DNA of 64,000 bases, taken from positions 1-64,000 of the forward strand of contig JAJFIC010000064.1 in assembly GCA_021775315.1 (NCBI GenBank), written 5' to 3'. Positions within the stretch are counted from its first letter, which is position 1. Each line of letters starts with the position of its first letter. This stretch comes from Paracoccaceae bacterium (lineage in GTDB: Bacteria > Pseudomonadota > Alphaproteobacteria > Rhodobacterales > Rhodobacteraceae). The translations under genes were made by a program, and so were the position numbers. Below are positions 19,562-25,936 of this stretch, piece after piece. The notes beneath the pieces were generated by a model. It was not told the origin of the DNA, did not search any database, and worked only from the letters and a program-made list of their open reading frames with translations.

Positions 19562-22117
19562 ATGGTAGCCTTGCCGCTCAACAGCCATTTGCCCCAATTG
19601 CGGACCCGCCCCGTGCCGACCACTTTGCCAATCGAGACCGCGCTGCCCGACTTGTTGGCCGCACTCAAAACTCATCGGCAGGCGGTTCTGCAAGCCCCGC
19701 CGGGGGCTGGTAAAACGACGCTTGTTCCACTTGCGGTACTCAGGGCCGGATTGATCAAAGGCCGGATTCTGATGCTTGAGCCGCGCCGTCTGGCCACCCG
19801 CGCCGCGGCTGAACGGATGGCGCAAACGCTAGGGCAAAAGCTGGGCGAAACCGTCGGCTATCGCATTCGCGGCGAAAACACCTGCAACAAACACACCAAA
19901 ATCGAAGTGGTGACCGAAGGGATTTTGACCCGGATGATCCAGTCAGACCCGGAACTGCCCGGCATCGGCATGGTCATATTCGACGAATTCCACGAACGGT
20001 CCATGCAGGCCGATCTCGGCCTTGCGCTGTGTCTGGAAATCCGTGCAGCCTTGCGTGACGATCTGGTGCTGTTGGTCATGTCAGCCACGCTTGACGCGGC
20101 ACCCGTGGCAGATCTGATGGGCGACGCCCCGGTCATCACCTCAAAAGGCCGGGCGTTTGCGGTTGAAACCCATTGGCTGGCGCAACCGTGGTCGCGCCCC
20201 GCGCAGCAGACGGGCGGACACCGTGGGGGCAACGGGCGCGCGTTTGAAGCCGCGATGACCGATCTTGTCGAAAAAGCGGTGCACGAAACCGAAGGCGGTG
20301 TTCTGGTGTTTTTACCCGGCGAGGGCGAAATTCGCCGCGTTGAAGCCCGATTAAAGGGGCGGCTGGCCGGATCGGTGTCTGTGCATCCGCTGTTTGGCGC
20401 GATGGATTTTAAGGCCCAGCGCGCGGCAATTGCGCCGGTTCATTCGGGGCGTAAGATTGTGCTGGCAACCGCGATTGCAGAAACCTCGTTAACGATCGAA
20501 GACGTGCGGGTTGTGGTCGACGGCGGGCGGGCGCGACGGGCCCGGTTTGACGTGGCCTCGGGCATGTCGCGGTTGGTGACGGAAAAGGTGACCAAGGCCG
20601 AGGCAACCCAGCGTCAGGGCCGCGCCGGGCGCGTGGCCGAAGGCGTCTGCTACCGGCTGTGGACCAAGGGCGAAGAAGGTGGACTTGCACCATTTCCACC
20701 AGCGGAGATCGAGGCCGCTGATCTGGCGCCTTTGGTTCTGGAATGTGCTCTGTGGGGCGTGACAGAACCCGGCGATCTGCCGTTTTTGACCCAGCCCAAT
20801 GCCGGTGGCATCGCGCGCGCCCGGTCGCTATTGAAAGCGCTTGGCGCGTTGGACACGGCAGGTCGCATCACCCGCCATGGCAAGGACATGGTCCGCCAAC
20901 CGCTGCATCCACGATTGGCACATATGTTGCTGAAAGGCGGATCAGACGCGCCGCAATTTGCCGCCATGCTGGCGGAACGCGATGTGCTGGCAGGGGCCGG
21001 GTCACGCCCACCTGCCGATTTGACACTGCGCTGGCAGGCGGTCAGGGATGCTCGAAAATTTGCAAACGAGCACCTCTATGCGATCAACCACGCAGTTCTT
21101 GGCCGCATCAAGCAAGAGGCTCGGCGGCTCCCAACAGGCAAAGGTCAGCGGCTTTCTCCCGGTGAAATGGCCGCACTGGCCTATCCCGACCGCATTGGAC
21201 AAAGACGAAAAGGCGGGGCCGCGCGTTACGTGCTGTCAGGCGGCAAGGGCGCGTTTTTCGACGAGGCCGAGCCGATGGCGACCAGCCCCATGATCATCGC
21301 CACCGATCTGGATGGCGATACCAGCGAAGCGCGCATTCGTGTTGCCGTGAATTATTCAGAAAACACGCTGCGCCAACAATATGGGGATCAGATCGAGGCG
21401 CGCGATATTTGCATCTGGTCGCGACGTCTGCGCGCGGTGCAAACCTTAAAACAAGACCGGTTCGGTGCGCTGATCCTGCGCGAACAAAACTGGAAAGGCT
21501 GCCCGCCTGATCAGATTGCGGCCGCGATGTGTGACGGATTGCGCGATCTTGGTTTTGACGCGCTGCCCTTTAACAAAGCCGCGCATCTGCTGTTGGGCCG
21601 CCTTGAGTGGTTGCGCACGCGCGGCGCCTTGATGCCGGATTGTTCTGCCGACGGTTTGCTGGGCGATCTGGAAAACTGGCTGTCCCCGCATCTGGGCAAA
21701 TGCCGCAAACCCGAAGATATCAGGCAGATCGACCTGACTGCCGCCCTGATGGCACGGTTAAGCTGGGAACAGACCCAGGATCTTGATCGGCTGGCCCCAG
21801 CGGCCATCAAAGCCCCGACAGGCACCCGTCTGGCGGTTGATTACACAGGTGCCCAGCCATCTGTATCTGTGCGCCTGCAGGAAATGTTTGGGCTGGCGTC
21901 ACATCCAACACTCGGCCCGGATCACCTGCCGGTGCTGATCGAATTGCTGTCGCCTGCCGGGCGCGCCGTGCAGGTCACCGCCGATTTGCCGGGGTTTTGG
22001 CGTAATTCTTACAGCGATGTGCGCAAAGATCTGCGCGGACGATACCCAAAACATCCATGGCCGGAAGACCCGACAAAGGCCGAACCAACGCGGCGGCGCA
22101 AACCTAAGGGCCAATAA
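19562..22117 (+). CDS. hrpB: ATP-dependent RNA helicase HrpB
   Basis: An 851-residue DExH-box helicase. The core holds APPGAGKTT (Walker A), FDEFHERS (DExH box), SATLD (motif III) and TQRQGRAGRVAEG (motif VI), then the HrpB-specific C-terminal region ending FWRNSYSDVRKDLRGRYPKHPWPEDP. Its RNA target in bacteria is not settled. The start is uncertain: the ATG at 19562 follows GGGGGCGGG, but later in-frame GTG or TTG codons would give the shorter N-terminus usual in the family. A TTAA-N7-TTAA pair sits at 19533-19547 just before this start. Confidence 0.93.
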   Translation: MVALPLNSHLPQLRTRPVPTTLPIETALPDLLAALKTHRQAVLQAPPGAGKTTLVPLAVLRAGLIKGRILMLEPRRLATRAAAERMAQTLGQKLGETVGYRIRGENTCNKHTKIEVVTEGILTRMIQSDPELPGIGMVIFDEFHERSMQADLGLALCLEIRAALRDDLVLLVMSATLDAAPVADLMGDAPVITSKGRAFAVETHWLAQPWSRPAQQTGGHRGGNGRAFEAAMTDLVEKAVHETEGGVLVFLPGEGEIRRVEARLKGRLAGSVSVHPLFGAMDFKAQRAAIAPVHSGRKIVLATAIAETSLTIEDVRVVVDGGRARRARFDVASGMSRLVTEKVTKAEATQRQGRAGRVAEGVCYRLWTKGEEGGLAPFPPAEIEAADLAPLVLECALWGVTEPGDLPFLTQPNAGGIARARSLLKALGALDTAGRITRHGKDMVRQPLHPRLAHMLLKGGSDAPQFAAMLAERDVLAGAGSRPPADLTLRWQAVRDARKFANEHLYAINHAVLGRIKQEARRLPTGKGQRLSPGEMAALAYPDRIGQRRKGGAARYVLSGGKGAFFDEAEPMATSPMIIATDLDGDTSEARIRVAVNYSENTLRQQYGDQIEARDICIWSRRLRAVQTLKQDRFGALILREQNWKGCPPDQIAAAMCDGLRDLGFDALPFNKAAHLLLGRLEWLRTRGALMPDCSADGLLGDLENWLSPHLGKCRKPEDIRQIDLTAALMARLSWEQTQDLDRLAPAAIKAPTGTRLAVDYTGAQPSVSVRLQEMFGLASHPTLGPDHLPVLIELLSPAGRAVQVTADLPGFWRNSYSDVRKDLRGRYPKHPWPEDPTKAEPTRRRKPKGQ

Positions 22118-22132
22118 GGGGCCCTCATTGGT

Positions 22133-22210
22133 CGAAAAATACTCTCGCCGAAAGCCAGAAAGTTTCGTCCTCACCCAAAAGACAAGATGCCTTCGGCGAG
22201 AGTATTTTCG
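22133..22210. repeat. Long inverted repeat after hrpB (AAAATACTC-type element)
   Basis: Arms of about 19 bases, CGAAAAATACTCTCGCCGAA (22133-22152) and its complement (22192-22210), differ only by one A in the A-run and flank a 39-base centre. The repeat starts 16 bases after the hrpB stop. It probably acts as a two-way terminator or mRNA 3' end structure between hrpB and the convergent membrane protein gene at 22229. Single copies of the same core occur after other genes in the window. Confidence 0.7.
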
Positions 22211-22228
22211 TTCAATAAGGAAAAGGGA

Positions 22229-22474
22229 TCAGTCTTTTTTCTTGGCGATATAGGTTTGGTACAGCCAGATCAGCACAAGTGCCCCAAGAATTGCGCCGAT
22301 AAACCCGGCAGCCATGCCAAGCACCGCCAGAAGGGCGGTCAGCACCAACCCGCCGACAAGCGCGCCAAGCACACCGATGGCGATCGTCACAGGGACGCTG
22401 GTTTCAAGATCCATAATCCGCGTTGCGATATATCCTGCTGCAGCGCCAATAATCAGCAAATAGACGACACCCAT
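22229..22474 (-). CDS. GlsB/YeaQ/YmgE family membrane protein
   Basis: An 81-residue, very hydrophobic, Gly-rich protein with three membrane helices and a basic tail (AKKKD). It matches the transglycosylase-associated/GlsB family of small stress-related membrane proteins whose biochemical role is unknown. GGAGGGG lies shortly before the ATG. Confidence 0.8.
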   Translation of the reverse strand: MGVVYLLIIGAAAGYIATRIMDLETSVPVTIAIGVLGALVGGLVLTALLAVLGMAAGFIGAILGALVLIWLYQTYIAKKKD

Positions 22475-22551
22475 TGAACCCCTCCGGTTTTGTGACTTCG
22501 CTTAGTATATGGGTAGGTGTGCCATGATTTGAAGGGCCTCCGGAGTGTATT

Positions 22552-23460
22552 CTAGGTTAGGGCCCCACCCACAGGAATGTGAAAGCCCAGCAAAAGCGTT
22601 GCGGGGTCCATTGCCGCCTTGCCCGGACGCTGAAGCTTTTTGAGGCGCAGCGCACCAGTTCCGCAGGCGATTGTTAAATCGCTGTCCAGCACTTGCCCGG
22701 GCGTGCCGTGACCAGCGGCGATCTGGCTGTCGAGCAGTTTCAACCGCTCGCCTTCAAACAGGCACCATGCGCCGGGAAAGGGCGACAGACCACGGATTTG
22801 CCGATCCAGTGTCTCGGCAGATTGGTGCCAATCGATCCGCGCCTCAGCCTTGTCGATTTTGGCAGCGTAGGTCACACCATCCGCGGATTGTGGCACCGCC
22901 GTCAGGGTTTCCAGCCGGGCCAATGCGTCGGTTATTGCCGTGGCACCTAGGGTCGCCAGACGGTCGTGCAGACGCGCTGTTGTATCCTCAGACGCAATGG
23001 CGGTCTCAACACGTAGCAGGACCGGACCGGTGTCAAGCCCCGCCTCCATCTGCATCACGCAGATGCCGGTTTTCGCGTCCCCGGCCATGATTGCGCGGTG
23101 GATCGGCGCGGCACCCCGCCAGCGCGGCAGCAGAGAGGCGTGGATGTTAAGGCAGCCGTTCTTTGGCGCATCAAGCAGCGCCTGCGGCAGGATCAGGCCA
23201 TAAGCGACCACCACTGCCACATCGGCGTTCAGCGCAGCAAATGCGGCGATTTCTGCGCTGTCTTTAAAGTTCAGCGGATGGCGCACTGGCAGACCCAATG
23301 CATAGGCGCGGGCTTGCACTGGCGAGGGGCGCTCTTTCTTGCCGCGACCGGCGGGGCGGGGTGGTTGGCAATAGACCGCCGCGATCTCGTGGCCTGCCGC
23401 GACCAGCGCGTTCAGCACCGGAACCGAAAAATCCGGCGTGCCCATAAAGATCACGCGCAT
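22552..23460 (-). CDS. fmt: Methionyl-tRNA formyltransferase
   Basis: A 302-residue enzyme that formylates initiator Met-tRNA with 10-formyl-tetrahydrofolate. It starts [16 protein letters not shown]; the catalytic residues are Asn105 and His107 in [14 protein letters not shown] and Asp143 in [14 protein letters not shown]-terminal OB-like domain follows after about residue 205. It begins 3 bases after the stop of the deformylase-like gene, so the order is def, def-like, fmt in one transcript. The ATG at 23460 is preferred to the GTG one codon earlier. Confidence 0.96.
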
Positions 23461-23463
23461 CAC

Positions 23464-23970
23464 CTAGTCCCCGCGTTTGGCCAGCTTGGCCGCTTTGGCC
23501 AGCAGCATTTTGCGTTTCACTGCACTTAGATTGTCAAAATACATTCGACCGTTCAAATGGTCGATCTGATGTTGTACCGAGACCGCCCAGAGCCCAACAA
23601 AGTCCTGCCGCACGCGAATGCCATGATGGTCAATAAACGATACCGTCAGTCCGCGCGGGCGGATGATTTTTGCGCTAGCGCCGGGCAGGTTTGGCGATGC
23701 TTCGTCATGTGGCACCAGCTTTTCACTGACATGCAGGATTTCAGGATCGGCCATGCGGACGACCTGACCTTTGCCTTGCGAACAATCGACCACAGCCAAC
23801 CGCTGCATCACGCCGATTTGCGGTGCGGCAAGCCCGATACCGGGCATCGCATACATAGTCTCGATCATATCATCCCACAGCGCACGCACCTGATCTGTCA
23901 GCACACCAACAGGTTCAGCCACTGACCGCAGACGCTGATCTGGCCAAGGGACAAAAGGCCGGACCGCCAT
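23464..23970 (-). CDS. Peptide deformylase-like protein lacking catalytic residues
   Basis: A 168-residue protein of the peptide deformylase fold. The first motif, GIGLAAPQIG (44-53), is intact. The second motif, normally EGCLS with the metal-ligand Cys, reads DEASPNLP, with Ser92 where the Cys should be. The third, normally HExxDH, reads HQIDH (134-138): both His ligands remain but the catalytic Glu is Gln135. It should therefore not deformylate by the known mechanism. It is 168 residues, full length, and starts inside the def stop (TAATG overlap), 3 bases before fmt. A ribosome-binding or regulatory role is possible. Confidence 0.85.
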   Translation of the reverse strand: MAVRPFVPWPDQRLRSVAEPVGVLTDQVRALWDDMIETMYAMPGIGLAAPQIGVMQRLAVVDCSQGKGQVVRMADPEILHVSEKLVPHDEASPNLPGASAKIIRPRGLTVSFIDHHGIRVRQDFVGLWAVSVQHQIDHLNGRMYFDNLSAVKRKMLLAKAAKLAKRGD

Positions 23971-24488
23971 TACAACAGCGCCCGTTCTTTTTTCAGCTTT
24001 TTCATTTTGTTTGTGATCATCGAGCGTTTGATCCGGCTGAGGTAGTCAATGAACAGCTTGCCATTCAAATGGTCGATTTCGTGTTGCGCACAGGTCGCGC
24101 CCAACCCGTCTAGCTGCATTTCCTGTGTCTTTCCGTCCAGATCAAGATACCGCACCTTGACCTCGGCGGGGCGGGTTACCTCTTCGTACATGTCGGGGAT
24201 AGACAGGCAGCCTTCTTCATAGGTGTTCTTTTCTTCAGATGCCCAGATCACTTCGGGGTTAAACAGCGCCATAGGGTCTGGTGGCGTATCTTTGCCTGAA
24301 AAATCCATCACGAACAGGCGTTGCAATACGCCGATCTGTGGCGCCGCAAGCCCGATGCCGGGTGCGTCATACATGGTTTCCATCATGTCATCTGCCAGCT
24401 TGCGCAGGCTTGGGTCCACGCCCTCGACCGGGGCGCAGATTTTCTTGAGGCGCGGGTCGGGGTGGATCAGGATAGGTCGAATGCTCAT
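23970..24488 (-). CDS. def: Peptide deformylase
   Basis: A 172-residue Fe/Zn deformylase that removes the formyl group from nascent N-termini. All three motifs are intact: GIGLAAPQ (44-51), EEGCLS with Cys94, and QHEIDH with His136, Glu137 and His140. The basic tail (MKKLKKERALL) is typical of ribosome-associated deformylases. It is the first gene of the def, def-like, fmt cluster and overlaps the next start by one base. Confidence 0.96.
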   Translation of the reverse strand: MSIRPILIHPDPRLKKICAPVEGVDPSLRKLADDMMETMYDAPGIGLAAPQIGVLQRLFVMDFSGKDTPPDPMALFNPEVIWASEEKNTYEEGCLSIPDMYEEVTRPAEVKVRYLDLDGKTQEMQLDGLGATCAQHEIDHLNGKLFIDYLSRIKRSMITNKMKKLKKERALL

Positions 24489-24763
24489 GGCACCGATTTA
24501 ACGCCGCCCGTCACAAGTTTCAAGCATGTGTGGCGAAGTGGAAAATACCTGACGGGCGTGGCGTATCCGCCGCGCGAGCCGCCCCCTTTTATTGCCAGTC
24601 GCATGCGCAAATCGCTGTAGGATTGCCTTGCGCCCTTAAAATCATCGGGCGCTTTTCAGTCCGGTTTCATGTGTTTCCGTTCATACCCACAAATAATTCC
24701 GAAAACCGTTTCACACTTATTAGTTTGCGTTCTAATGTGACCCAAACTGAACGGAGCCAACCA

Positions 24764-25936
24764 ATGAATTTCGACGAGATTATCGACCGCCGTGGCACCC
24801 ATTCTGCGAAATGGGACCTGATGGAAACCTTGCACGGCGTTTCGCCCGAAGACGGGATTTCGATGTGGGTGGCCGATATGGATTTTCGCCCACCCCAATG
24901 CGTCAACACCGCGCTGCAAGCGATGCTGAACCACGGCATATTCGGCTATTTTGGCGATGATGCGGCCTATCGCAATTCGATCCAATGGTGGATGAAAAAC
25001 CGCCATGGCTGGGATATCGACACGGATTGGATTTTTTCGACCCACGGGTTGGTGAATGGCACTGCCTTGTGCGTGCAAACATGGACCGAGCCGGGCGATG
25101 GCGTTATTCTGTTCACGCCGGTTTACTATGTGTTTCACAAGATTCTGAACGCTGCGGGTCGCCAGATCGTGGAATGTCCGCTGGCCAATAATGATGGCCG
25201 CTATGAGATGGATCTGGATCTTGCGCAAAGCCTGCTGACCGGCAACGAAAAAATGGTGATCCTGTGTTCGCCACACAATCCCGGTGGCCGTGTCTGGACG
25301 GTCGAAGAATTGCGCGGCTTGGCAGATTTCTGTGTCAAAAATGATCTGATTCTGGTCAGCGACGAAATCCACCACGATCTGGTCTTTCCCGGCGAAAAAC
25401 ACACGATCATGCAGCGCGCCGCACCCGAAATCAGCGACCGGTTGGTGATGCTGACCGCTGCGACCAAGACCTTTAATATGGCCGGGGCGCATACCGGTAA
25501 CATCATCATTCAAGACGCCAAGCTGCGCGCGGATTTCGCCCGCACAATGGACGCGACCGGCACGTCCCCAAATGCGTTCGGACTGCATGCGATCACGGCT
25601 GCTTACAGTGCCGAAGGTGCGGCGTGGATTGATGCGTTGATGGCGTATCTTGATGAAAACCGCCGGATTTTTGACGCGGGTGTCAATGCCATTCCCGGCG
25701 CGAAATCCATGCCGATGGAGGGCACGTATCTGTCCTGGGTCGACTTCACCGATACCGGCATGGAAGCCGACGAGGTAATCCGGCGGGTCAAGCAAGAGGC
25801 CAAACTGGCCGCCCACGGTGGCGCAATCTTTGGCAAAGGCGGCGAGACCTTTATGCGGTTTAATATCGGCATGCCAAAATCCTATATTCAAGAGGCCGTG
25901 ACCCGCCTGCAAGCGGCCTTTGCCGATCTGCAATAA
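24764..25936 (+). CDS. MalY/PatB-type cystathionine beta-lyase (PLP aminotransferase class I/II)
   Basis: A 390-residue fold-type I PLP enzyme. It begins MNFDEIIDRRGTHSAKWD, the MalY/PatB signature; VSDEIHHDLVF (Asp200) and TAATKTFNMAG (Lys235, the PLP Schiff base) are the cofactor site. These enzymes cleave C-S bonds in cystathionine and related thio-amino acids. The ATG at 24764 follows CGGAG. An 5-bp inverted repeat ATTAG-N8-CTAAT lies at 24719-24736 in the promoter region. The next gene starts 3 bases after its stop. Confidence 0.87.
   Translation: MNFDEIIDRRGTHSAKWDLMETLHGVSPEDGISMWVADMDFRPPQCVNTALQAMLNHGIFGYFGDDAAYRNSIQWWMKNRHGWDIDTDWIFSTHGLVNGTALCVQTWTEPGDGVILFTPVYYVFHKILNAAGRQIVECPLANNDGRYEMDLDLAQSLLTGNEKMVILCSPHNPGGRVWTVEELRGLADFCVKNDLILVSDEIHHDLVFPGEKHTIMQRAAPEISDRLVMLTAATKTFNMAGAHTGNIIIQDAKLRADFARTMDATGTSPNAFGLHAITAAYSAEGAAWIDALMAYLDENRRIFDAGVNAIPGAKSMPMEGTYLSWVDFTDTGMEADEVIRRVKQEAKLAAHGGAIFGKGGETFMRFNIGMPKSYIQEAVTRLQAAFADLQ

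Follow-up and report, generated by a model that had tools for sequence, protein, structure and literature searches.

A 64,000-nucleotide stretch of Paracoccaceae bacterium DNA (contig JAJFIC010000064.1, hereafter the window) encodes, between an ordinary peptide deformylase (PDF) and methionyl-tRNA formyltransferase, a second PDF-like protein, DefL, in which catalytic residues are replaced. What does such a protein do at this place? The three genes lie on the minus strand in the order def, defL, fmt, with the following features:

23970..24488, minus strand: def, ordinary peptide deformylase (172 aa), EGCLS and QHEIDH both intact
23464..23970, minus strand: defL, putative pseudo-deformylase (168 aa), called from an ORF with an ATG start, a PF01327 match and orthologues
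23818..23841, minus strand: motif I of defL, GIGLAAPQ (residues 44-51), unaltered
23689..23703, minus strand: motif II of defL, EASPN (residues 90-94), in place of EGCLS
23557..23574, minus strand: motif III of defL, QHQIDH (residues 133-138), in place of QHEIDH
23476..23523, minus strand: basic C-terminal helix of DefL (model residues 150-165), counterpart of the ribosome-binding helix of E. coli PDF
22552..23463, minus strand: fmt, methionyl-tRNA formyltransferase (TIGR00460, 286.8 bits)

An earlier, sequence-only reading of the locus had described defL as a full-length gene overlapping def by one base and separated from fmt by three. The gene is indeed a 168-aa ORF started by ATG, and in the sequence TAATG the def stop and the defL start have one base in common. 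The gap of three bases exists only if fmt starts at ATG (302 aa); a GTG directly after the defL TAG (303 aa) would leave no gap. A promoter and terminator scan of positions 22000-25000 returned counts close to shuffled means. DefL and the adjoining Def, the two PDF matches in the window's genome, are 42% identical (70/168). DefL matches the PF01327 profile with 128.7 bits (E 1.8e-37; curated cut-off 22.8). It also scores 121.8 bits against TIGR00079, the NCBI equivalog for peptide deformylase, above the cut-off of 103.95, so per-genome PDF counts may overstate the number of enzymes.

In PDFs the metal is bound by Cys90 and two histidines, Glu133 is the general base, and the backbone NH of Leu91 helps to hold the formyl oxygen (E. 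coli Def numbering, which omits the first Met). In DefL, in window numbering, Cys is replaced by Ser92, Leu by Pro93, a further Cys by Ser131 and Glu by Gln135, and both His are retained; the translated ORF thus bears out the exchanges at Ser92 and in HQIDH and the two His noted previously. Of the motifs by which an active peptide deformylase is recognized, DefL has motif I and lacks II and III. Replacement of Leu91 is a catalytic loss as well, because proline cannot supply the backbone NH. In published accounts Cys90 is a metal ligand next to Leu91 (PMC3101196), and a docked ligand forms bonds with Gln50 and the backbone of Leu91 (PMC4964514). Relative to E. coli Def, the family of DefL orthologues (DEFL) carries Cys90 to Ser, Leu91 to Pro, Cys129 to Ser and Glu133 to Gln changes, with Gly89 mostly Ala and Ser92 mostly Asn; Gln50, Glu88, His132 and His136 are retained.

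To judge the constancy of these residues, 193 loci were reduced to 182 distinct intact proteins. Gln51, Glu90, Ser92, Pro93, Ser131, His134, Gln135 and His138 (window numbering) are invariant in 182/182, as are motif II in the form E[A/G]SP and motif III in the form HQxxH. Orthologues that mostly keep Cys and Glu had been named in advance as the finding that would speak against a dead paralogue; neither residue is kept in any (0/182). Eighty members of the set came from a scan with QHQ among its patterns and are therefore biased for Gln135, but the other sets agree: 71/71 in the family sample, 12/12 among the order's weakest-scoring genomes and 20/20 in one genus. In 19 additional loci QHQxDH and E[A/G]SP were found in 19/19. 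Given invariance in 182/182 distinct intact orthologues, the substitutions are not due to chance. Two interrupted copies were noted apart from this set. At locus L210 (genome G689), which was left out, a frameshift around residue 125 breaks defL in two, through either an early loss or a sequencing error, and in genome G492 (C1:970705-971196) the defL match is reported with one internal TAG.

In the window's order, 378 of 390 genomes have a match to the DEFL profile (E <= 1e-56). Among the remaining 12, 11 have only Def or Def and a third paralogue, DEFM (E <= 1e-10), and one is G689 with its frameshifted copy. Absence from 11/390 genomes means that defL is not essential everywhere. Two of the 11, G147 and G723, have same-genus relatives that do match, which points to secondary loss. 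Since 76 of 80 named relatives in a defL scan are placed in Rhodobacterales by NCBI (3 are unplaced and 1 stands under Hyphomicrobiales), we take the order to be Rhodobacterales. Across 289 genomes sampled from the class, the best DEFL-profile score outside the window's family (284 genomes) was 185.9 bits, the level of ordinary Def, and five genomes of the family scored at least 272.7 bits. A phylum sample of 299 genomes (E <= 1e-56) contained no match outside the family: all 23 matches belong to it, and the 20 genomes listed among the 276 without a match are all of other families. No relative was found in viral contigs in one scan with the window DefL protein. A search of the open-licence literature yielded no essentiality data for defL.

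Gene neighbourhoods were compared in the def regions of 80 of 199 family genomes, chosen by best Def scores, together with the window's own (81 loci, the family sample). The defL gene is present in 71 and absent in 10, and each of these 10 loci comes from a genome with a single PDF match. The next PDF or Fmt gene after defL is fmt in 69/71 loci, so the def/def-like/fmt order, which the sequence-only reading had proposed to look for in relatives, recurs there. With 12 weak-scoring loci of the order added to the family sample, fmt lies at most 100 bases from defL in 75/81 loci and 344-873 bases away in 6/81, leaving space for another gene; in some of these six (L024, L038, L042, L055, L062, L075) that space contains an open frame, at most 190 aa long. 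In two more loci (L070, L080) fmt was not found within about 1 kb. The gene upstream of defL ends -14 to +6 bases from its start in 71/83 loci, and from defL to the downstream gene starts are coupled or nearly so in 49/81. Loci without defL (n=21) have Def in 21/21 and an Fmt of more than 280 aa in 20/21. When the presence of defL is mapped on an Fmt tree of 114 rows, the best tree calls for 12 changes, and branches with good support enforce 2 of these. Among the 199 family genomes, G018 and G174 have no PDF match at all, and their completeness of 91 and 93% makes assembly gaps likely. At L016 (genome G049) the only PDF is a def without fmt in the fetched stretch; in the 95-row tree described below it branches close to the base of Def of this family.

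In 28/81 loci (L003, L006, L012 and others) DEFM lies between def and defL. It retains Cys and Glu, has an Arg in motif I (GRGLAAPQ) and is without the basic ribosome helix, the region being often shortened; by these features it looks like a PDF freed from the ribosome. DEFM and DEFL are thus PDF paralogues of one cluster, of which DEFM, unlike DEFL, has Cys and Glu, lacks the basic helix and evolves fast.

A tree of 95 rows (28 Def, 28 DEFL, 16 DEFM, 22 other alphaproteobacterial Defs and E. coli, drawn from 253 sequences), obtained by a quick search without bootstrap, separates DEFL from all other rows by a branch with SH-aLRT 100; the stem is 1.16 changes per column long. The clade sits near the base of the family's Def, the long stem making its exact attachment unsure. 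This pattern suggests a single origin, a burst of change and then constancy.

Selection was measured by pairwise Nei-Gojobori dN/dS with the same pairs for all three genes, pairs being dropped if dS fell outside 0.05-1.3 in any of Def, DEFL and Fmt. The respective values for Def, DEFL and Fmt were 0.048, 0.057 and 0.096 in genus g39 (108/190 pairs kept), 0.142, 0.169 and 0.220 in g425 (29/36), 0.054, 0.058 and 0.086 in g416 (only 2/10) and 0.146, 0.113 and 0.141 in g170 (10/10). In a wide set, far more saturated, mean dN/dS was 0.24 for Def, 0.29 for DEFL and 0.50 for DEFM. These values support purifying selection on defL, with dN/dS near that of active Def, and give the selection that had been deduced from gene spacing alone a footing in four genera. 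Together with the invariance of orthologues they rule out local decay. Over the same 60 genomes mean pairwise identity was 0.70 for Def, 0.65 for DEFL and 0.68 for Fmt; over 28 DEFM-bearing genomes it was 0.74 for Def, 0.71 for DEFL and 0.52 for DEFM. Dead DEFL is therefore kept far better than live-looking DEFM in the same genomes.

An AlphaFold2 model of DefL built with 41 aligned sequences (mean pLDDT 95.0, pTM 0.90) had PDFs as its best matches in the PDB, with TM 0.92 to E. coli PDF 1icj and 0.94 to 1bsj, so that model and PF01327 score agree with the previous assertion of a kept fold. Mean column entropy in DEFL was 0.52 bits at 23 positions, which we take from general knowledge of PDFs to form the pocket, against 1.19 elsewhere; one of the averaged positions, E. 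coli 86, is misplaced in the alignment by a one-residue loop shift. The same contrast in Def (0.25 vs 1.07) and DEFM (0.82 vs 1.68) means that the DEFL pocket is still constrained, not specially constrained. The invariant His pair and Gln51, with the new Ser, Pro and Gln, point to a pocket that still binds something.

The model ends in a C-terminal helix, residues 150-165. In E. coli PDF, L149, K150, R153 and K157 of this helix touch uL22, and K160 and R163 touch 23S rRNA (PMC12690207). DEFL has Lys or Arg at positions 150, 157 and 160 in 83/83 sequences, Arg or Lys at 163 in 28/83, Arg at 153 in 6/83 and Leu at 149 in 14/83; position 153 is mostly Met also in this clade's Def and in other alphaproteobacterial Defs. 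The net charge of the C-terminal part is +6.6 in DEFL, +8.2 in Def and -0.9 in DEFM. Judged by these residues, the basic ribosome-binding helix appears to be largely kept in DEFL.

With its catalytic residues replaced, DefL probably binds rather than cuts. The explanation that we prefer, with a probability of about 0.42, is that it is a pseudo-deformylase at the ribosome exit which binds nascent N-termini without cutting them. The def gene would have been duplicated once, near the base of the window's family; the duplicate would have lost the metal ligand Cys90, the general base Glu133 and Leu91 together and then become fixed as a pseudoenzyme. Coupled translation would keep the production of DefL in line with that of Def and Fmt. 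DefL may dock near uL22 via its C-terminal helix, as PDF does, hold the N-terminus of the nascent chain (formyl-Met or just-deformylated Met) without cleavage, and so adjust when, or in which order, deformylation and Met removal take place. This reading starts from invariant substitutions in a single clade under purifying selection, together with a conserved pocket, a basic helix and a fold predicted to be that of PDF. In its favour we count presence in 378/390 genomes, invariance, Def-like dN/dS, the one clade and TM of 0.92-0.94, as well as pocket entropy, the basic residues 150, 157 and 160, the C-terminal charge and upstream coupling in 71/83 loci. Against it we count position 163 (basic in 28/83), position 153 (Arg in 6/83), absence in 11/390 genomes, the lower mean identity of DEFL over the 60 genomes and a pocket less conserved by entropy than that of Def. 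A retained pocket and a basic helix that is mostly retained agree with the earlier suggestion of binding to formyl-Met peptides, the ribosome or Def/Fmt. A broader version seems doubtful to us, namely that DefL is an order-wide, PDF-derived dead reader of nascent N-termini at the ribosome exit whose Glu to Gln site is a natural substrate trap. In that capacity it would regulate N-terminal processing, or set its timing, beside ribosome-bound active Def and, in many species, also beside a second live-looking PDF without the ribosome helix.

The main rival, which we consider unlikely, is a structural partner: DefL would join Def or Fmt in a hetero-oligomer and there activate, stabilise or scaffold its partner, itself binding no nascent chain. 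The position between def and fmt in 69/71 family-sample loci carrying defL and starts coupled or nearly so upstream (71/83) and downstream (49/81) agree with such a role, and the family-specific Trp32 (98%) and Met42 (100%) could be contacts. Yet a structural partner alone leaves the invariance of both His and Gln51 unexplained, loci without defL have Def (21/21) and an Fmt of more than 280 aa (20/21), and fmt is 344-873 bases off in 6/81 loci and was not found in two more. Some Fmt columns do differ with the presence of defL, for example Arg150 at 90% with and 30% without it (kinship ignored), but no Def or Fmt column switches cleanly; the one column examined on a tree, a Tyr before motif II of Def, gave no signal with defL presence (2 supported independent pairs, median p 1).

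A residual enzymatic activity is quite improbable. DefL would then be a hydrolase of altered chemistry, or an other-metal deformylase that resists oxidation, both active-site Cys being Ser. H2O2 oxidises the iron of E. coli PDF along with its Cys ligand (PMC10751367), a stress role of this kind has been suggested for type 3 PDFs (PMC12690207), and both His, Ser92, Gln135, Glu90 and Ser131 are invariant in 182/182. However, Cys90, Leu91 and Glu133 are altered together with no evident replacement for the general base, and a backup deformylase would be expected to retain Glu133. That DefL is a decoy, soaking up natural PDF inhibitors and shielding Def, is very improbable: an accessory PDF of Vibrio cholerae reduces actinonin susceptibility (PMC12690207), but hydroxamate inhibitors bind via the metal (PMC3101196), whose Cys is absent in 182/182, and occurrence in 378/390 genomes is unlike the patchy pattern that inhibitors would drive. 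A decaying leftover copy is scarcely credible. The catalytic residues are gone, and the gene is absent in 11/390 genomes and frameshifted in one; against this stand dN/dS of 0.06-0.17, invariant replacement residues and presence in 378/390. Relaxed dN/dS was looked for and not seen (0.057-0.169, four genera), a result that refutes decay to a pseudogene for the family taken together.

DefL, judged by its residues, is probably an inactive PDF paralogue, and so of a known kind; what is new is its fixation across an order. With E. coli Def (type 1, PDB 1bsj/1icj) it shares the predicted fold, motif I, both His, Glu88, the basic C-terminal helix and fmt as a neighbour, and it differs by Ser for Cys90, Pro for Leu91 and Gln for Glu133. 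Type 3 or inactive PDFs are described from S. aureus, S. pneumoniae, archaea and protists, type 3 being marked by changes in motifs I and II (PMC12690207). Like DefL, these are PDF homologues, reportedly weak or inactive, and in S. aureus and S. pneumoniae they occur beside an active PDF (PMC12690207). DefL differs from type 3 as described there: its motif I is largely intact, its changes fall in motifs II and III, and its gene has a fixed place next to def and fmt throughout an order. Earlier inactive accessory PDFs were reported in single species; defL occurs in almost every genome sampled from an order, with the same three-part catalytic loss in every intact orthologue examined, beside genes for adding and removing formyl-Met.

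Lamberioux et al. 2025 found clustered PDFs in 98.1% of their Rhodobacterales species, mostly (62.5%) three to a cluster, and called the rationale elusive (PMC12690207). Theirs is very probably the same gene cluster as def/defL. The fixation of defL is relevant to the question raised by such clusters, namely why PDF genes lie together in Rhodobacterales. Parts of the main text of that paper contain no mention of a dead Rhodobacterales copy, and none is described in the titles and abstract beginnings of the open-licence literature searched. The orthologues occur in tractable laboratory species, which makes the proposed role testable. Named carriers of defL include Ruegeria, Phaeobacter, Roseovarius, Sulfitobacter, Shimia, Salipiger, Paracoccus and Haematobacter. 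In a record named Maritalea mobilis and filed under Hyphomicrobiales (L084), defL is 71% identical to that of the window, reflecting either a misnamed record or a transfer.
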